Positions 5,246 to 16,882 of a stretch of 64,000 nt of DNA are shown here, one piece after another. Positions within the stretch are counted from its first letter, which is position 1. Each line of letters starts with the position of its first letter. Location of the stretch: NCBI GenBank assembly GCA_009926135.1, contig RFPL01000001.1, positions 372,001 to 436,000 on the forward strand. Reading direction: 5' to 3'. Origin of the DNA: Sphingomonadaceae bacterium. GTDB lineage: Bacteria; Pseudomonadota; Alphaproteobacteria; Sphingomonadales; Sphingomonadaceae. The position numbers were made by a program, and so were the translations under genes. Below the pieces are notes generated by a model, which saw only the letters and a program-made list of their open reading frames with translations, had not been told where the DNA came from and ran no database searches.

Positions 5246-6247
5246 TCAGGCGGACTGGTCGCGCCGCCAGGCTCGCGGTGGCTGGCCGTGGCGTTGGGCA
5301 AACCAGGTGGTGAAGGCGGCCGAGCTGGCAAAGCCCAGCAGCTCGGCAATCTCGGCATTGCTGCGCCGCGTCCCGGTCAGCTGCCCGCGCGCCAGTTCGC
5401 TGCGCACCGTATCGAGCAGGGCGTGGTAAGTCGTGCCTTCTTCGGCCAGCCGCCGCTCCATCGTCCGCCGCGACAGGCCCAGACGTTCGGCCACCAGCGG
5501 GGCGGTGCAGCGCCGCCCGGCCAGCATGGCACGCAGCAGGCGCCGGATGCGCTCGGCCAACGGCAAGTCCGCCAGTCCCGGCAATACCGCCCGTAGCTGG
5601 GCGGTATATGGTCGCAGCGCTGCTTCAGCCAGCAGGTTGGGGCGATCAAGGTCGGCCGGATCGAAAACGATCCCGCTGAAGTCCTGGGCAAAGTGGACCC
5701 GGGTGCCATAGGCCCGCTCGAACTGGCTGATCCGGACCGGGCGGGGCCGCTCCAGATAGATGCCCTGTGCGTGCCATCCCAGGCCCAGCAACTGGCGCAG
5801 GATGCGGTGTAGCATGGCGACGGCGACATCGGTCGCCTGCACACGGGGCCCGTCCCCGGCAACGGTGCAGGCCAGGATGGCCACGCCTCCAGCCTCGGTC
5901 AGGTCAATGGTCAGGGCTTCGTTGTGAAGTGGCAGGTACGATGTAAAAATGCCCAGCGCGCTGCGGATGTCCGGTTCGTCCCGGGCTAGCAGGGTCACCG
6001 GGCCAAGGTTCGAAAAGCCGCGCAGTTCGGCCAGTCGCAGGCCGAAGTCCTCGGCCCCGGCCAGTTCTGCTGCGCGCTCGAACATCCGGTTCAGGGCACC
6101 GGTTGGCAATCGCCGGTCCGGATCGCGCTCTGCGTCGGCTGGCAGACCTGCCGCCCGCAGCAGCCCCGCCGGATCCAGTCCATAGGACCGGGCCAGCGCA
6201 CTGAACCCGGTCAGGGCCGCTGCTCGGATGGTTGGAATTTGGCGCAT
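5246..6247 (-). CDS. AraC-family transcriptional regulator (arabinose-binding-like N-domain)
   Basis: 333 aa from ATG 6247; a TTG at 6268 is an in-frame alternative. Residues 1-200 resemble the N-terminal ligand-sensing domain of the OruR/ArgR-type AraC group (SYGLDPAGLLRAAGLP, then ELRGFSNLGPVTLLARDEP). The C-terminal 100 residues hold the double helix-turn-helix (VAERLGLSRRTMERRLAEEG and ELLGFASSAAFTTWFAQRHG). It is divergent from the CMD/BKACE operon and almost certainly controls it. An inverted repeat overlaps its start codon region (6242-6266), which suggests autoregulation. The inducer is unknown but is plausibly the substrate of that operon. Confidence 0.88.
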   Translation of the reverse strand: MRQIPTIRAAALTGFSALARSYGLDPAGLLRAAGLPADAERDPDRRLPTGALNRMFERAAELAGAEDFGLRLAELRGFSNLGPVTLLARDEPDIRSALGIFTSYLPLHNEALTIDLTEAGGVAILACTVAGDGPRVQATDVAVAMLHRILRQLLGLGWHAQGIYLERPRPVRISQFERAYGTRVHFAQDFSGIVFDPADLDRPNLLAEAALRPYTAQLRAVLPGLADLPLAERIRRLLRAMLAGRRCTAPLVAERLGLSRRTMERRLAEEGTTYHALLDTVRSELARGQLTGTRRSNAEIAELLGFASSAAFTTWFAQRHGQPPRAWRRDQSA

Positions 6248-6266
6248 TTGAGCAATCAAATGGCGC
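6242..6266. promoter_or_regulatory. Inverted repeat overlapping the araC-type start, candidate operator
   Basis: GCGCATTTGA, a 4 nt spacer GCAA, then TCAAATGGCGC. The arms match 10 of 10 apart from one extra G in the right arm. It covers the regulator's start codon and lies about 59-83 bp upstream of the CMD-like gene start, a sensible position for control of both divergent transcripts. Binding by the adjacent AraC protein is inferred from location only. Confidence 0.4.
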
Positions 6267-6324
6267 AAAATATAAATCCTGTCCAGCCGGTCTGGCTATT
6301 CTCGGCTGCATTGGGAGAAAAATA

Positions 6325-6732
6325 ATGCCATCCACCACGCCGATCTGTGATGCCGCCCGCGCCAGCGGGCAGTGGAACCAGGCCTGGGACCAGGCCGCCG
6401 CCTTTGATGCGGAATGGATGGAAAAGTTCCTCGACATGGGCACTCATGCGGCCCGCAAGGGGATCATCGATCCCAAGACATATGAATTCCTGGCCATCGC
6501 CGTCGATGCCAGCTGCACCCATATGTATTCGCCGGGGGTCAAGCGCCACATTGCCAAGGCGCTCGACCTGGGCGCCACGCCTGAAGAGATCATGGCCGTG
6601 CTGCAACTGGTTGCGGTGCTCGGTATCCACTCGGTCGCGCTCGGGACACCGCATCTGGTTGACGAAATGACCGCGCGCGGGATGCCCGTACCCGGCCGTA
6701 CCCCTGAACCATCCGAATCCAAGGAGGACTGA
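6325..6732 (+). CDS. Carboxymuconolactone decarboxylase (CMD)/AhpD-fold protein
   Basis: 135 aa from ATG 6325, preceded by GGGAGAAA; the longer track ORF (6232) enters the promoter region. The CMD helical fold is visible in EFLAIAVDASCTHMYSPGVK followed by HIAKALDLGATPEEIMAVLQ. The peroxidatic-type CxxC of AhpD is reduced to a single cysteine (CTHM), so a disulfide-based peroxidase role is unlikely; it is more probably a decarboxylase/isomerase-like or structural member. It is the first gene of the operon, 2 bp before the BKACE gene. The exact reaction is unknown. Confidence 0.78.
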   Translation: MPSTTPICDAARASGQWNQAWDQAAAFDAEWMEKFLDMGTHAARKGIIDPKTYEFLAIAVDASCTHMYSPGVKRHIAKALDLGATPEEIMAVLQLVAVLGIHSVALGTPHLVDEMTARGMPVPGRTPEPSESKED

Positions 6733-6734
6733 AC

Positions 6735-7793
6735 ATGCATTTCCTCGATGACAGCCTGCTGCCCGAAAACCAGGAAAAGCTGGTTATCCAGGTCGCCCCC
6801 TATGGCCCGCAGTGGCTGCCGGGCGATTTCCCCGAAGATATCCCGGTTTCAATGGCCGACCAGGTCCAGAAGGCGGTCGATTGCTACAACGCCGGGGCCA
6901 CCGTGCTGCACCTGCACTGCCGCGAGGCGGATGGGAGCGGCTCGAAGCGGCTGTCGATGTTCAACGAGATGATCGACCGAGTCCGCACGGCTTGCCCCGA
7001 CATGCTGATCCAGGTTGGGGGCTCGATCTCCTTCGCGCCGGAAGGCGAAGGCGGCGAGGCCAAGTGGCTGTCCGACGATACCCGCCACATGCTGGCCGAA
7101 CTGAAGCCCAAGCCGGACCAGGTGACCATCGCGGTGAACACAAACCAGATGGACATCTCCGCGCTGATGAGCGCCGACGATATCGCGGGAACCTGCCTGA
7201 CCAACCCGGCAATGTTCGAAGCCTATCGCAACATGCACTTTGAATGCGGCCCGGTGTTCATGGAAGAGCACCTCAAGCGGCTCGTCGCCAATGGCATCCA
7301 GCCACACTTCATGGTCGGTGACATGAGCCAGCTGGAGACAGTTGAGCGGCTGATCCGCAAGGGGCACTACAATGGCCCCCTGGTGTTGAACTATGTCGCA
7401 ATCGGCAGCGGTGCCGCCGGAACCCATCCTGCGGACCTGATTGAATTTGCCCGCCGCGTGCCCGATGGCGCGGTGCTGACGATCGAGACGATCATGCGCA
7501 ACGTCGCCCCGTTCAACGCGATTGCCATTGCGCTGGGCCTCCACGTCCGCGTCGGGATCGAGGACAACCTTTGGAGCCGCAAGGGTGAACGGATGACCTC
7601 GGTCCAGCAGGTCGAGCAGATGGTGCGCCTCGCCAACGAACTGCACCGCGATGTCGCCAGCGGTCCGGAAGCCAAGGCGATCTACCAGATCGGCACCTTC
7701 TACCAGTCGACCGATGAAACCCTGCGCCGCGTGGGCTATCCGCCCAACCGCCAGCCCGGCCAGCGCGGCGTCCCGCGGTGGGAGTACGCGTGA
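6735..7793 (+). CDS. BKACE-family beta-keto acid cleavage enzyme (3-keto-5-aminohexanoate cleavage-like)
   Basis: 352 aa. BKACE (DUF849) enzymes are Zn-dependent and condense a beta-keto acid with acetyl-CoA to give acetoacetate plus a new acyl-CoA. The metal-binding HxH is present in TVLHLHCREADGSGS, and later conserved elements TIETIMRN and HVRVGIEDNLW are seen. It is longer than the usual 275-310 aa members because of an N-terminal extension and extra internal segments, so it may belong to a subgroup with an unassigned substrate. It is flanked by CMD-like and SDR genes in one operon, which suggests side-chain or ring-fragment catabolism. Confidence 0.85.
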   Translation: MHFLDDSLLPENQEKLVIQVAPYGPQWLPGDFPEDIPVSMADQVQKAVDCYNAGATVLHLHCREADGSGSKRLSMFNEMIDRVRTACPDMLIQVGGSISFAPEGEGGEAKWLSDDTRHMLAELKPKPDQVTIAVNTNQMDISALMSADDIAGTCLTNPAMFEAYRNMHFECGPVFMEEHLKRLVANGIQPHFMVGDMSQLETVERLIRKGHYNGPLVLNYVAIGSGAAGTHPADLIEFARRVPDGAVLTIETIMRNVAPFNAIAIALGLHVRVGIEDNLWSRKGERMTSVQQVEQMVRLANELHRDVASGPEAKAIYQIGTFYQSTDETLRRVGYPPNRQPGQRGVPRWEYA

Positions 7794-8614
7794 GCCAGCT
7801 GGCGGGGCGGGTCTGCATTGTCACGGGGGCGGCACGCGGGCTCGGGCAGGCGATCGCAGGATCGCTTGCCGCCGCCGGTGGTCGCCTCGCCATCTGTGAC
7901 CTGCGCGAGGCGGACCTGGCGGAGACTGCCGCGGCGTTGCGGGCCAAGGGCGCCGAGGTCTATGCCGCGGCCTGCGATGTCAGCGACAGCGCGGCGGTCG
8001 ATGCCTTTTTTGCCAGCGTCGAGCAGGAGCTTGGCCCGGTCGATGTGCTGGTCAACAATGCCGCGCTGGTCCCGGGTGGGCCGGAGGACGAGGTGCGCCG
8101 CAGCCGCCACTACACCTACCTGACCACGCCCGAACCCCGCGACACGCTGGGCTTCACCAGCGCGATGAGCGATGCCGAATGGCTCAAGTACTGGGACGTC
8201 AACGTCCACGGCGTGTTCTTCTGCACCCGGGCCGCGCTCCGGCAGATGGAACCGCGCCGCCATGGCCGCATCGTCAACATTGCCTCGATTTCCGGACTCT
8301 CAGCTCTGAGTGCGCACAGCCCGCACTATTCGGCCACCAAGGGGGCCGTGATCGCCTTCACCCGCGCTGTCGCGGCGGAAGTGGCCGGGGCAAATATCTT
8401 CGTCAATGCGATCGCACCGGGCGGCGTGGCGACCCCGATGTTCGATGATTACCTGGCCCGGCTCGACCCGGAGGCACGTGGGCGGCTGTTCCAGATGATC
8501 CCGGCTGGAAGGCTGGGAACGATGGACGAATACGCTGGGCTGGTGGCCTATCTGGCAGGTGACGGGCACTATCTCGTCGGGCAGATTATCAGCCCGAACG
8601 GGGGGATGATCTGA
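7790..8614 (+). CDS. Short-chain dehydrogenase/reductase (SDR)
   Basis: 274 aa from GTG 7790, which overlaps the BKACE stop as GTGA; GGGAG lies just upstream. The cofactor motif is TGAARGLGQAIAG. NNA follows at about residue 88, and the catalytic Ser and YxxxK appear in IASISGLSALSAHSPHYSATK. There is an unusual insertion after NNAALVPGG (about 30 residues, through LTTPEPRDTLGFTSAMSDAEW) compared with classical SDRs. It probably oxidises a hydroxyl to the keto group needed by BKACE, or reduces a product; the substrate is unknown. Confidence 0.88.
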   Translation: MSQLAGRVCIVTGAARGLGQAIAGSLAAAGGRLAICDLREADLAETAAALRAKGAEVYAAACDVSDSAAVDAFFASVEQELGPVDVLVNNAALVPGGPEDEVRRSRHYTYLTTPEPRDTLGFTSAMSDAEWLKYWDVNVHGVFFCTRAALRQMEPRRHGRIVNIASISGLSALSAHSPHYSATKGAVIAFTRAVAAEVAGANIFVNAIAPGGVATPMFDDYLARLDPEARGRLFQMIPAGRLGTMDEYAGLVAYLAGDGHYLVGQIISPNGGMI

Positions 8615-9067
8615 ATGGGCGTGCAAGATAGTCGGGGCCTGATGTCGGTCGACGGCATCTGCCACTGCGGCGAGATCGCCTGGGAGGCGCTGATTGATCC
8701 TGAACGGCTGGTCATGTGCCACTGCACCGATTGCCAAGTGATGGGCGGCGGCGCCTTCCTGTGGGGCGTGCCAGTGCCTATCGACCGCTTCACTCTGCTC
8801 AGCGGCATACCGCGCAGCTACCGTAAACAAGGTAGTAGTGGAGCCTGGCGGCGGCTGCACTTCTGCGGCACTTGCTCCACGCCGCTGTACGGGACTGAGG
8901 ACGACAACCCAAGCATATGCTCGCTACGATTGGGTTCGTGCCGCCAGGCCCGGCAGTTGCGGCCACGACTGCAACTGTGGCACGCTTCGGCACTGGACTG
9001 GGTAGATGGGATCTGCGGGATTCCGTCCCTCGATACACAGCCAGCGGGAGTTTACCGTGACCTCTGA
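8615..9067 (+). CDS. GFA-family (CENP-V/GFA fold) zinc protein
   Basis: 150 aa. It starts immediately after the SDR stop (TGAATG) with GGGGGA upstream. Zinc ligand motifs of the GFA fold are visible: ICHCGEI, MCHCTDCQ and HFCGTC. These proteins were named for glutathione-dependent formaldehyde activation, but most have no proven activity. The 3' end overlaps the MFS gene by 11 bp. In this operon it may handle a small aldehyde or thiol adduct; that is inference. Confidence 0.82.
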   Translation: MGVQDSRGLMSVDGICHCGEIAWEALIDPERLVMCHCTDCQVMGGGAFLWGVPVPIDRFTLLSGIPRSYRKQGSSGAWRRLHFCGTCSTPLYGTEDDNPSICSLRLGSCRQARQLRPRLQLWHASALDWVDGICGIPSLDTQPAGVYRDL

Positions 9068-10337
9068 GACCGTGACAGTTTCCGCCAGCATCGGCTCCGG
9101 CGATCCCCCCGCTCGAACGGCGTGGGGATTGATCCTGTTCCTGCTGGCGCTCCACGTGCTCAACCAGATCGATCGACAACTAGTGGCGGCCTTTGCGGCC
9201 GATATCATGCGCGATCTGGGCCTCAGCCGCAGCCAGTTCGCGCTGATCGCCGGACTGGCCTTCAGTGGGGTCTACGCCTTTGCCGCGTTGTTTGCCGGGG
9301 TCCTGGCCGACCGGCTGGGGCGGGTCCGGGTGCTGTCAGGCGGGCTTGGCATATGGAGCCTGTTCACAGCGCTGGCGGGTCTGGCGCAGGGGTTCTGGAC
9401 CATGCTGGCGGCTCGGCCGTTCGTGGCGGCGGGTGAGGCAACGCTGGTCCCTACCGCGAGCAACATCATTCTCGCGCGGGTCGGCGATTCCCACAAGGCC
9501 GCCGCGCTCGGACTGTTTTTTGCGGGCATCCCGCTGGGGATCGGGGGCGGTTTCCTGATCGCCGGATTGCTGGGGCCGGTGCTCGGCTGGCGCGGGACCT
9601 TCCTGCTGATGGGCGCGCTGGGCGTGATCGCGCTGGCGGCGCTGATGCGGCTCAAGGATGCGCCGCCCGACCTGTCGCACCGGCCGACGCTGGCAGGAAA
9701 CCTGACTGCACTGTTCGCCGTGTTCCGGGCCAAGCGGCGGGCCCTGTGGGCTTCGCTGGCGATCATCTTTGCTCATTTCCACACCGCGACCAGCCCTTTC
9801 GTCCAGCTCTGGCTGACCAGCGAAAAGGGCTATGCCCCTGCCGCAGCGGCGCAGCTTTACGGGCTGATGTTCGTGACCTTCGGCCTGCTTGGCACGTTTG
9901 GCGCAGGCCTGCTGGGCGATTGGGCCAAGCGCCGCTTCGGCTTTGACCGGGCGGCAACCATGTTCGCACTGCTGCTGATCCTCGCGCCGCTGCTGGTGAT
10001 CTACCGGCTGGCCCCGGGCGGCACGCCGCTGTTCCTGCTTGGCATGGCCGGGTCGATCCTGTTCATGACCGTGATCTACGGCCCGATCTTCGCGATCATC
10101 GAGGAGCTGCTGCCACCGCAACTCAAGGCCACCTCAACCGGGCTCAATATCCTCGTGCTCAACATCCTGGCGATTGGCGGCGGGGCGCTGCTGATCGGAG
10201 TAGTCAGCGAACGCCTCGTGGTCGCCGGATCGGCGCGAAGCTGGACGCTGCCGCTGCTCGGCGCCGATGGGCTGGCTCTGTTGGCGGTGCTGTTCATCTT
10301 CGCGGCGATGCGCAGTCCGCGCCAGATCGCTGACTAG
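9057..10337 (+). CDS. MFS transporter
   Basis: 426 aa from GTG 9057, with GGGAG 7 nt upstream; the track start at 9006 lies inside the GFA gene. Twelve hydrophobic segments are present. The first helix carries the NQIDRQLVAAFAADIMRDLG stretch typical of anion/aromatic-acid symporter-like MFS proteins, followed by the loop 2-3 motif GVLADRLGRVRV. It is the last gene of the BKACE operon and so the likely uptake route for the substrate. Specificity cannot be read from sequence. Confidence 0.85.
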   Translation: MTSETVTVSASIGSGDPPARTAWGLILFLLALHVLNQIDRQLVAAFAADIMRDLGLSRSQFALIAGLAFSGVYAFAALFAGVLADRLGRVRVLSGGLGIWSLFTALAGLAQGFWTMLAARPFVAAGEATLVPTASNIILARVGDSHKAAALGLFFAGIPLGIGGGFLIAGLLGPVLGWRGTFLLMGALGVIALAALMRLKDAPPDLSHRPTLAGNLTALFAVFRAKRRALWASLAIIFAHFHTATSPFVQLWLTSEKGYAPAAAAQLYGLMFVTFGLLGTFGAGLLGDWAKRRFGFDRAATMFALLLILAPLLVIYRLAPGGTPLFLLGMAGSILFMTVIYGPIFAIIEELLPPQLKATSTGLNILVLNILAIGGGALLIGVVSERLVVAGSARSWTLPLLGADGLALLAVLFIFAAMRSPRQIAD

Positions 10338-10515
10338 TCCGCGGCGGCTGGACGCGGCCTGATTTGCTATTTCGGGCAAACAGGCGCATAGGGTTCCGGC
10401 TACGTCGCCTGCGACGGGACTTTTGGCAGTCGATGCCCCCAGATCCCCTTACACGCCACATTGCCCCAGGCGTAATCTCGCCTGGGTCCTGCAGGTTTCG
10501 TGAAAGGACCGCATC
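10338..10515 (+). promoter_or_regulatory. Promoter and structured leader of the cold-shock operon
   Basis: A 178 bp gap. A weak sigma70-like pair, TTGCTA (10364) and CATAGG (10387) with 17 bp spacing, is possible. An inverted repeat CGTCGC-ct-GCGACG is at 10403-10416. A perfect 8 bp hairpin, CCCAGGCG-taatct-CGCCTGGG, is at 10465-10486. GGTCCT at 10485-10490 can pair with AGGACC at 10505-10510, which covers the Shine-Dalgarno AAAGGA of csp. The arrangement resembles the structured leaders of cold-shock mRNAs. Confidence 0.45.
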
Positions 10516-10722
10516 ATGCCTATTGGCACCGTAAAATTCTTCAATACCGACAAGGGCTTTGGCTTTATTGCGCCTGATGGCGGCGGCACGGACAGCTTTG
10601 TCCACATCACTGCCGTCCAGGCAGCTGGCATGTCGACGCTCGACAAGGACCAGCGCGTAAAGTTCGAACTGGAAACCGATCAGCGCGGACGCACTTCAGC
10701 CGTCAACCTCGAATCGGCCTGA
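10516..10722 (+). CDS. Cold-shock domain protein (CspA family)
   Basis: 68 aa RNA/ssDNA-binding OB fold. RNP1 (KGFGFIAPD) and RNP2 (DSFVHITAV) are intact. The start [14 protein letters not shown] is typical. It has a single CSD, unlike the double-CSD proteins also common in alphaproteobacteria. AAAGGA precedes the ATG but can be paired in a leader hairpin. It is first in a cluster with an IF-1 paralogue (4 bp gap) and two small unknown genes, which suggests coordinated induction on temperature shift or growth arrest. Confidence 0.93.
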
Positions 10723-10726
10723 TCGG

Positions 10727-10993
10727 ATGGCCAAAGAGGAGTTAATGACCCTCGAAGGCCAGATCGATGATATCCTCCCCGACGGTCGGTTCGGTGTGGT
10801 GCTCGAAAACGGGCACCGCATTGTCGCCTATACTTCAGGCAAGATGCGGAAATTCCGCATCCGGTCGGTCGTCGGGGATCGGGTCAAGGTCGAAATGACG
10901 GCCTACGATCTCAGCAAGGGCCGGATCGTGTTCCGCGATCGCGGACCGGGCTTCACAACGGGGGCACCGCCGCGACGCCAACAGCGCCGCTGA
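10727..10993 (+). CDS. infA: Translation initiation factor IF-1 paralogue
   Basis: 88 aa S1/OB-fold protein. It matches IF-1 through [26 protein letters not shown] and [21 protein letters not shown]. It has a basic tail ([14 protein letters not shown]) absent from the standard 72 aa IF-1. Placement behind a csp gene rather than in the usual infA locus suggests a second, conditionally expressed copy. Start choice: ATG 10727 gives the family's MAKEE, while the codons AAAGAGGAG also act as a good Shine-Dalgarno for ATG 10745. A main infA copy is expected elsewhere in the genome. Confidence 0.85.
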
Positions 10994-11017
10994 GGGGCAA
11001 AACCGAGGAGAATGCCA

Positions 11018-11257
11018 ATGTCGACCTCCACCCAGTTCTACCTCGATCAAGCGGACCAGTGCGGCCGCAATGCCCAGTCTGCCGCGCTGCAAAATCAGCG
11101 CGACGTTCAGCTCAAGGCGCAAGCCGCCTGGCAGGCGATGGCTGATCGCGCGATCCGCACCGCCACCGAACGCGACCGCCGCGACGCCGAGCGCCGCGAT
11201 GCCGACACCCGGCTGGCGCTCGTCACAGAAGGAAGCCCCGAATGTCCCAAGACCTGA
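11018..11257 (+). CDS. Small charged hypothetical protein
   Basis: 79 aa from ATG 11018, with GAGGAG 7 nt upstream; the ATG at 11012 would be too close. It is predicted mostly helical and rich in Ala, Arg, Asp and Gln, beginning MSTSTQFYLDQADQCGRNAQ and ending with an ATERDRRDAERRDADTR charged helix. No signal peptide or membrane span. I do not recognise a family. It overlaps the next gene by 16 bp and probably belongs to the csp-infA transcript. Confidence 0.65.
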   Translation: MSTSTQFYLDQADQCGRNAQSAALQNQRDVQLKAQAAWQAMADRAIRTATERDRRDAERRDADTRLALVTEGSPECPKT

Positions 11258-11454
11258 TCCGCCCGTTCCTGATCAGTCGCGACGCAGAGGGCAACGTTCG
11301 CCTTTCGGTGCGTGACGTCCGCTACAATTCGCAGGGCTATCCGCTGGTTACCGCCGTGCTGCAGGACACCCTGTTCGAGACGGTTGCCGCAGCGCGCAGC
11401 TTTGCCCGCACCAACTTCCAGGCGGTTGCCGGTCAGTACGAACTGACTGCCTGA
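11242..11454 (+). CDS. Small hypothetical protein
   Basis: 70 aa, soluble, mixed alpha/beta (MSQDLIRPFLISRDAEGNVR, then DTLFETVAAARSFARTNFQA). GAAGGAAG lies just upstream of the ATG inside the previous gene. No recognised domain. It is the last gene of the csp cluster and converges on ftsK with an 8 bp gap. I infer co-expression from the overlap. Confidence 0.65.
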   Translation: MSQDLIRPFLISRDAEGNVRLSVRDVRYNSQGYPLVTAVLQDTLFETVAAARSFARTNFQAVAGQYELTA

Positions 11455-15133: not shown

Positions 15134-16882
15134 ATGAGCGACAATTCGATTTTGGATTCGGGCGACAGTTTCAAGGACTGGATTCCCGCCGGCTGGCCGG
15201 CGCGAAGCCTGGCCGAGTGCGAGGCAATCCTCTGCGCGCCCGGTGCGCGGTTTGAATATGAAACCATCGATATTCGCGGGGTTCCGACCCGGGTCTGGAA
15301 GAACGCCCCCGAAAACCTGGCCGTGCTGGCCCGCGCTGGGCGTAGCCATGGCGATGCGACCTTCCTAATCTACGAAGACGAGCGGGTTTCCTATGAAGCC
15401 TGGTTTCGCGCGGTGGCTGCCCTGGCCCGTCATTTGCAGTCGCTGGGGGTGCAAAAGGGTGACCGGGTGGCGCTGGCCATGCGCAACCTGCCTGAATGGC
15501 CGGTGGTATTCTTTGCCGCCGTCAGCATCGGTGCGATCTGCGTTCCGCTCAATGCCTGGTGGACCGGGCAGGAGCTGGCCTATGGCCTGTCGCACTCGGG
15601 CGCGAAGGTGCTGTTCTGCGATGGTGAGCGGCTGGAACGGATTGCAGCCCATCGCGGCGAACTGCCGGGCCTTGGCCATGTAATCGTCTCGCGCCGCGAC
15701 GACCTGCCGGCGGGCATCGCGTCGCTGGAAAGTATTATCGGGCCTTCGTCAGCGTGGGGAAACTTGCCCGATCAGGATCTGCCCGACGTTGCCATCCACG
15801 CCGATGACGACGCGACGATCCTGTACACCTCTGGCACGACCGGCAATCCCAAGGGAGCGCTGGGCACCCACCGCAACTTCGTGACCAACATCCTCTCCAG
15901 CGGCTATGGCGCCGCGCGGCAAGTGCTGCGGCGCGGCGATCCGCTGCCCGAGCCGGCGCGCAAGGTGCTGCTGACGGTGATCCCGCTGTTCCACGCCACC
16001 GCCTGCTCGGCTACCATGATGGGCGCGATCGCGGCCGGCCACACCATGATCTTCATGTACAAGTGGGAGCCGGAAAAGGCCTTCCAGATCATTGAGCGCG
16101 AAAAGGTCAATTCAACCGGCGGGGTGCCGACCATCGCCTGGCAGCTGATCGAACATCCGGCGCGCGAGAAGTACGATCTCTCCTCGATCGAGGCGATTGC
16201 CTATGGCGGCGCGCCCTCCGCGCCCGAACTGGTCCGCAAGATTCGCGAAGTGTTCGGCGCGCTGCCGGGCAATGGCTGGGGTATGACCGAGACCACGGCG
16301 ACGGTTACCGGGCTGTCTGCCGAGGACTATCTCAATCGCCCGACCAGTTGCGGCCCGCCGGTTGCGGTGGCGCAGCTAAAGGTGCTGGGCGAAGCTGGCC
16401 AGGAGCTGCCGCCGGGCGAGATTGGCGAACTCTATGCTTCGGGTCCGATGATCGTGAAGGGCTACTGGAACAACCCGGAAGCCACCGCTGCCACCTTTAT
16501 CGATGGCTGGGTCCGCACCGGAGACCTCGCCTGGCTGGACGACGAAGGCTTCTGCTATATCGCCGACCGGGCCAAGGATATCGTCATCCGCGGCGGTGAG
16601 AACATCTATTCGTCCGAGGTCGAGAACGTCCTCTATGACCATCCGGCAGTGATGGATGCGGCCGTGGTCGGGATTCCGCACCGTACACTCGGTGAAGAAC
16701 CGGCTGCCGTGGTCCACCTGACGCCGGGCCAGACCGCGACCGAAGCCGAACTGCAGGCTTGGGTGCGCGAACGCCTGGCGGCCTTCAAGGTGCCGGTGCG
16801 AATCCTGTTCTACCCGGAAACCCTGCCGCGCAACGCGAACGGCAAGATCCTCAAGAAGGATTTGAAAGCGCTGTTCGATTAG
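15134..16882 (+). CDS. Acyl-CoA synthetase (class I adenylate-forming enzyme)
   Basis: 582 aa. It activates a carboxylic acid to acyl-AMP and then acyl-CoA. The AMP-binding P-loop is TILYTSGTTGNPKGAL, A5 is GNGWGMTETTATVTG, the hinge is YIADRAKDIVIRGGENIY, and the catalytic A10 lysine is in NANGKILKKDL. The N-terminal 60 residues are an extra domain (FKDWIPAGWPARSLAECEAI). GTGGAGGATC is a strong ribosome binding site. Chain length cannot be read; a fatty acid or aryl-propionate is most likely. It converges on pyk with a 9 bp gap. Confidence 0.88.
   Translation: MSDNSILDSGDSFKDWIPAGWPARSLAECEAILCAPGARFEYETIDIRGVPTRVWKNAPENLAVLARAGRSHGDATFLIYEDERVSYEAWFRAVAALARHLQSLGVQKGDRVALAMRNLPEWPVVFFAAVSIGAICVPLNAWWTGQELAYGLSHSGAKVLFCDGERLERIAAHRGELPGLGHVIVSRRDDLPAGIASLESIIGPSSAWGNLPDQDLPDVAIHADDDATILYTSGTTGNPKGALGTHRNFVTNILSSGYGAARQVLRRGDPLPEPARKVLLTVIPLFHATACSATMMGAIAAGHTMIFMYKWEPEKAFQIIEREKVNSTGGVPTIAWQLIEHPAREKYDLSSIEAIAYGGAPSAPELVRKIREVFGALPGNGWGMTETTATVTGLSAEDYLNRPTSCGPPVAVAQLKVLGEAGQELPPGEIGELYASGPMIVKGYWNNPEATAATFIDGWVRTGDLAWLDDEGFCYIADRAKDIVIRGGENIYSSEVENVLYDHPAVMDAAVVGIPHRTLGEEPAAVVHLTPGQTATEAELQAWVRERLAAFKVPVRILFYPETLPRNANGKILKKDLKALFD

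Follow-up and report, generated by a model that had tools for sequence, protein, structure and literature searches.

A conserved AraC-linked operon with a long-form BKACE-like enzyme, probably for organic acid degradation, in a Sphingomonadaceae bacterium

Introduction

The combined logic of an SDR, a BKACE and an MFS transporter has been shown genetically for deoxyribonate in Pseudomonas simiae (PMC6365646), and BKACEs have been described as all carrying Tyr at the position of Kce residue 145 (PMC12871164). We have analyzed an operon of related gene content in a 64,000-nucleotide stretch of DNA from a Sphingomonadaceae bacterium, referred to here as the window, and observed that it encodes a BKACE-like protein that lacks this Tyr. 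The operon is probably a small regulated cluster that degrades an organic acid, and it offers a well-delimited, testable system through which a function may be assigned to a branch of the BKACE family that is as yet uncharacterised.

Results and Discussion

Structure of the operon

The features of the region are as follows, in window coordinates except for the sister cluster.

5246..6247, minus strand: AraC-type regulator (Arabinose_bd and HTH_18), divergent, start taken as ATG 6247
6240..6267, no strand: putative AraC operator, direct repeat TGGCGCA-N14-TGGCGCA, 21 bp (conserved-spacing repeat)
6325..6732, plus strand: CMD-like protein of the TH..Y..G..RH clade, without CxxC (ORF, Pfam, homologues)
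6735..7793, plus strand: long-form BKACE-like zinc TIM-barrel enzyme (Pfam, model, alignment)
7790..8614, plus strand: SDR, GTG start (Pfam; residues in 39 homologues)
8615..9067, plus strand: GFA-family protein, a lineage-specific passenger outside the conserved unit (Pfam; absent in relatives)
9057..10337, plus strand: MFS transporter, GTG start (Pfam; homologues in related loci)
about 197.4-203.3 kb of contig C1 of genome G000 (5436-11288 in locus L129): sister cluster, with a BKACE 63% identical at about 199.3-200.3 kb

The first-pass annotation of the window had described five packed plus-strand genes pointing away from an AraC-type gene, and this held in every detail: by the ORF list and translations, the CMD/BKACE/SDR/GFA/MFS junctions are exactly 2, -4, 0 and -11 bp, and the strands of the ORFs bear out the divergent arrangement. 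The family names given there are each supported by Pfam, all six proteins scoring above the cut-off (Arabinose_bd and HTH_18 for the AraC-type protein; 38.3 bits for CMD, 214.1 for BKACE with a cut-off of 24.8, 180 for adh_short, 83.6 for GFA and 143.6 for MFS_1). For the AraC gene, the ATG at 6247 is a better start than the TTG at 6268 that had been chosen earlier. Outside the operon, a gene for an AMP-binding acyl-CoA ligase lies on the same strand 4.8 kb downstream (window 15134-16882), and a homologue of this ligase is also found downstream in two close relatives (loci L004 and L079).

Conservation of the gene order

A scan of a genome collection with the window BKACE as query yielded 80 loci, about 63-98% identical, from Novosphingobium, other Sphingomonadales, other Alphaproteobacteria, many Burkholderiales, Acinetobacter, Streptomyces, Nocardia and Rhodococcus. 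The window proteins and partner proteins were mapped onto these loci and onto plasmid loci, and 3 layouts could be distinguished. In layout I, to which the window operon belongs, a divergent AraC gene is followed by CMD and BKACE genes, with SDR and a transporter. Layout II has BKACE and SDR together with a fused CMD-CMD, a transporter and a different AraC. In layout III, a divergent AraC gene is followed by QOR, TauD and BKACE genes, accompanied by a serine hydrolase and MFS and in many cases by YeiH.

The divergent AraC, CMD, BKACE order was present at 44 of 96 BKACE-like genes, in Alpha-, Beta- and Gammaproteobacteria and in Actinomycetes, with SDR also downstream in 23 of these cases and MFS as well in 18, and TauD plus QOR lay beside 21 of the 96; these counts are biased, since loci were picked by similarity to the window BKACE, with near-copies and the window itself among them. 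In most related loci, an AraC homologue pointed away from the operon. The conserved order that the first-pass annotation had proposed to look for in Sphingomonadales thus extends far beyond that order, within which the long-form clade is rare and patchy (15 of 301 Sphingomonadaceae family genomes, with several copies on plasmids).

The GFA gene behaved differently. No tblastn match to it was found at E 0.01 in any related locus, nor any match at 1e-20 in 30 relative genomes, and in the nearest relatives MFS directly follows SDR with GFA absent between them. The GFA gene is a lineage-specific insertion, a passenger in the operon; its inclusion by the first-pass annotation is right for the operon of the window and does not carry over to the conserved unit, as no relative has it there. 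A role for GFA as a pathway gene, which we had entertained, was rejected on its absence from the orthologous operons and the 30 genomes.

Such a clear chance addition might suggest that all the genes of the operon are unrelated and came together by chance. We give this idea almost no credence, as it is contradicted by the joint occurrence of AraC, CMD and BKACE at nearly half of the genes surveyed; the recurrence of the same order across phyla indicates that the cluster is more than chance. The core of AraC, CMD, BKACE-like, SDR and MFS genes is a real and widespread unit in distant soil and water bacteria. Of the 2 outcomes that the annotation had named as contrary to its reading, a known operon with the same order and loss of the order in relatives, neither was found; the reading as a catabolic unit under AraC control, for which the literature searched offered no characterised equivalent, is supported, our search (gene set; BKACE with TauD or CMD; VceA) having returned no characterised operon. 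Wider CMD contexts on plasmids of Agrobacterium, Natronosalvus, Acidiphilium and Sodalis were varied catabolic clusters that gave no pointer to a substrate.

The AraC-CMD gap

The AraC regulator is tied to the operon by the direct repeat in the gap between AraC and CMD, whose half-sites stand 21 bp apart. The left half-site overlaps the AraC start codon and is hence also coding; the right one is non-coding. Nine Novosphingobium-type relatives, read by eye, have both half-sites at the same spacing, exact or slightly changed, and 8 of these 9 were also matched by a repeat pattern search. When 72 such regions were examined for 8-mer direct repeats with at most 1 mismatch at spacings from 12 to 30, 44 regions had a repeat at spacing 21, 11 at spacing 22 and 1-6 at other spacings. 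With a duplicate of the window region removed, the count at spacing 21 was 43 of 71, vs a shuffled mean of 2.8 and a maximum of 10 in 200 rounds, where the shuffles preserve base content only and related regions are non-independent.

The half-site itself varies by lineage, being TGTCCCG in Burkholderiales loci and TGTGAAAA in Sphingomonadales layout III. A peak at a single spacing with differing half-sites would be hard to explain by descent alone, and from this pattern we infer that AraC binds the 21-bp repeat of its operon. Given the conserved operator, a reporter screen could identify the inducer and, through it, the class of substrate.

The long-form BKACE-like protein

At 352 aa, vs 274 positions in the family model, the window BKACE is indeed longer than usual, as had been remarked from its ORF, a length common to its whole clade. 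In a BKACE tree, which had been suggested as a check, it joined the long-form proteins, which stand apart from 15 canonical rows with full support and on a long branch. It scores above the curated cut-off of PF05853, and its TIM barrel has a His/His/Glu zinc site with Arg and Asp; the ligands H59, H61 and E276, together with R272 and D277, are invariant across the long-form clade. The predicted model (pLDDT 85.5, pTM 0.88, loop 99-111 disordered) had Kce as its best structural match (TM 0.71/0.90). With the Kce equivalog NF052387 the protein scored 142.6 bits, below the cut-off of 382, and none of the NCBIfam equivalogs fits it.

In our alignment, in which the placement near the gap is provisional, Kce position 82 is Ser or Thr in 15 of 15 canonical rows and a gap or Gly in the long form. 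Kce position 145 is Tyr or Phe in canonical rows (Phe in five, so that the Tyr rule of PMC12871164 is not strict), Gly (G195) in the window protein, and Gly or Ala in CMD/SDR-linked members; the other long-form proteins have Ala, Gly, Thr or Ser there, apart from three with Tyr. Neither canonical residue type is present in the window protein at these positions; given the gap at position 82, S97, two residues on, may serve as a stand-in for Ser82. Ser82, Glu14 and Glu143 all have roles in Kce, that of Glu143 being for the amino group of the substrate.

As a result of these replacements, which affect residues presumably required for the usual reaction of the family, the acetyl-CoA reaction cannot simply be transferred to the window protein: the assignment of the first-pass annotation to the BKACE family stood, and the reaction as stated there was not supported. 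Judged from its residues, acetyl-CoA-dependent cleavage by the protein is plausible. Annotation by name transfer as "3-keto-5-aminohexanoate cleavage protein" is unsafe across the long-form clade.

Possibly, the long-form protein uses its zinc site for a reaction that does not involve acetyl-CoA, and the loss of the Ser82 and Tyr145 positions would favor this; examples would be decarboxylation, C-C cleavage driven by water, or the hydrolysis of an intermediate that is cyclic or an epoxide. Chemistry does vary within the fold: the product of BsfD, which has Phe in place of the Tyr, is a diketone (PMC12871164), the structure 5zmy is that of a cis-epoxysuccinate hydrolase, and some groups lack BKACE activity (PMC4922564). 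Also, in a Diaphorobacter operon (L135, 9001-13446) a long-form BKACE is encoded together with a TTT binding protein, CMD, SDR and, in addition, a canonical BKACE that scores above the 3,5-dioxohexanoate transferase cut-off; as the latter would make a canonical role for the long form redundant, such a role is in doubt. However, the zinc, Arg and Asp residues are retained in the long form, acetoacetate-CoA ligase and thiolase genes lie beside some of its clusters, Phe occurs at position 145 even in some canonical rows, and S97 could replace Ser82. On these grounds we regard the non-acetyl-CoA reaction as rather unlikely.

In locus L131 (2698-5717), a TauD gene has a long-form BKACE gene on either side, followed by two acyl-CoA dehydrogenases; both BKACE-like proteins have retained the Tyr of Kce position 145, and one of them also the Glu of Kce position 141. 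In locus L143, a short ORF (5647-6024) that matches the C-terminal part of BKACE alone (profile 197-270) lies beside two full long-form genes and is likely a BKACE remnant.

Partner proteins

The CMD-like protein had been said to have lost one cysteine of CxxC. We found no such loss of its own, since the second position was never Cys in 67 homologues (Met in 37, Leu in 29, Arg in 1); the first was Cys in 46 of the 67. The redox pair of an AhpD-type peroxidase is therefore absent from all 67. Instead of CxxC, the clade has T65, R74 and H75 invariant and H66, Y68 and G71 nearly so. We dropped the cysteine as a clue to the pathway because the second Cys is absent clade-wide.

In the SDR, S166, Y180, K184 and Asp37 are invariant in 39 homologues; the earlier suggestion that it makes the keto group is upheld in that the enzyme appears suited to oxidation, and Asp37 usually goes with NAD use. 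A conserved Arg/Tyr-rich insert (R103, R104, Y108, R117), with R103, R104 and R117 in nearly all 39 homologues, has arginines that would suit an acid substrate.

The sister cluster and residue 193

The same contig carries a second long-form cluster, of layout III (AraC, QOR, TauD, BKACE, serine hydrolase, MFS), in which CMD and SDR are in effect swapped for TauD and quinone oxidoreductase. Layouts I and III adjoin in a congener and in L006, and both lie inside one locus in L011, L050 and L051, which suggests that their substrates are related. Partners of the two layouts can mix: a TauD gene lies between the BKACE and SDR genes of a layout I operon in L003 (9120-9968), and CMD is found within layout III in L071.

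The presence of TauD raises an organosulfur acid pathway, in which the sister layout would free sulfite via TauD and export it via YeiH while the window operon takes an intermediate that is related or arises later. Among structures, the best match of the sister TauD is one named taurine dioxygenase (5vn6, E 4e-144), and YeiH, a putative sulfate exporter, was seen beside both layouts. Against this, the window operon is without TauD or YeiH, the sole YeiH of the genome is on another contig, and the substrates of TauD-fold enzymes also include ethers and carboxylates; we consider the organosulfur pathway very improbable.

The position of Kce Glu143 is occupied by residue 193, which is Met in every one of 62 CMD/SDR members, is Gln in 20 of 23 TauD/QOR members, and is the most strongly layout-linked column of 352 (mutual information 0.689). 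On the tree this amounts to 3-4 independent switches, not significant by sign test (p 0.5). We rejected residue 193 as proof of a substrate switch, the independent switches being too few, and kept it as a hint.

A bolder suggestion, which we put forward tentatively and hold to be doubtful, is that the long-form clade forms a functionally distinct class of enzymes, whose zinc chemistry would be its own and would involve no acetyl-CoA or a different acceptor. It would be used in two alternative pathways (CMD/SDR and TauD/QOR), with substrates read by residue 193, in an undescribed catabolic route of Proteobacteria and Actinomycetes.

Proposed pathway

Our main reading, to which we assign a probability of about 0.5, is that of an inducible peripheral catabolic operon with BKACE-type chemistry in a rearranged active site. 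AraC, on the 21-bp repeat beside CMD, would turn on the operon in response to the substrate or an intermediate, and the MFS protein would import an organic acid. The NAD-type SDR, in which the catalytic residues are observed, would oxidise a hydroxyl group of the putative substrate to give a 3-oxo acid. The zinc TIM-barrel enzyme, with its observed metal site, would then cleave the C-C bond next to the keto group; a BKACE-type transfer to acetyl-CoA, yielding acetoacetate and a shorter acyl-CoA, is the most likely mechanism. The weakest step is that of CMD, which may be a lyase, isomerase or decarboxylase that works on an intermediate without a cofactor. Judging by M193, the substrate would have a side chain that is neutral or hydrophobic, in contrast to the amino substrate of Kce, and GFA would be dispensable.

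The acetoacetate product fits with an acetoacetate-CoA ligase, above the equivalog cut-off, behind a layout III cluster on a Streptomyces plasmid and with a BktB-type thiolase behind a long-form gene in Caballeronia SBC2, each a single case. The rarity of acetoacetate genes beside the long-form clade counts against the proposed scheme, which is also weakened by the loss of the Ser/Thr and Tyr/Phe positions of canonical BKACEs. In C. grimmiae (L140, 493-11998), prpB-prpC-acnD-prpF of the 2-methylcitrate cycle lie behind a layout III cluster, on its strand and 16 bp after a Rieske ferredoxin, which hints at propionyl-CoA in that host; a search of the other loci for these prp genes found none.

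Comparison with known systems

The window protein shares with Kce the TIM barrel, the zinc ligands and equivalents of Arg226, Glu230 and Asp231. Kce is about 75 residues shorter, however, with 26-28% identity, and in place of its Ser82, Tyr145 and Glu143 the window protein has a gap or Gly, Gly, and Met. PdKce, the Paracoccus BKACE with CoA (8rio/8rip), has the same fold and metal site, and its motifs TTGG and FEFECYD contrast with VGGSISF and QPHFMVG in the window protein. BsfD, the Burkholderia flavophos synthase (9zsc; PMC12871164), also combines the BKACE fold with a replaced Tyr and an insert after strand beta3, but it has Phe rather than Gly at that position, is biosynthetic, and is distant in sequence. 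The putative CMD subunit 2q0t belongs to the same clade as the window CMD, and both of its halves align with it over about 100 residues; it consists of two fused domains, as in layout II, whereas the window CMD is single.

The deoxyribonate operon (PMC6365646) likewise has SDR, BKACE and MFS, divergent logic, and a course from hydroxy acid to keto acid to cleavage. It differs in having a lactonase, of which there is none among the window operon genes, two MFS and no CMD, and glyceryl-CoA was proposed as its product. The logic of the window operon resembles that of the deoxyribonate operon, with different genes and a different active site.
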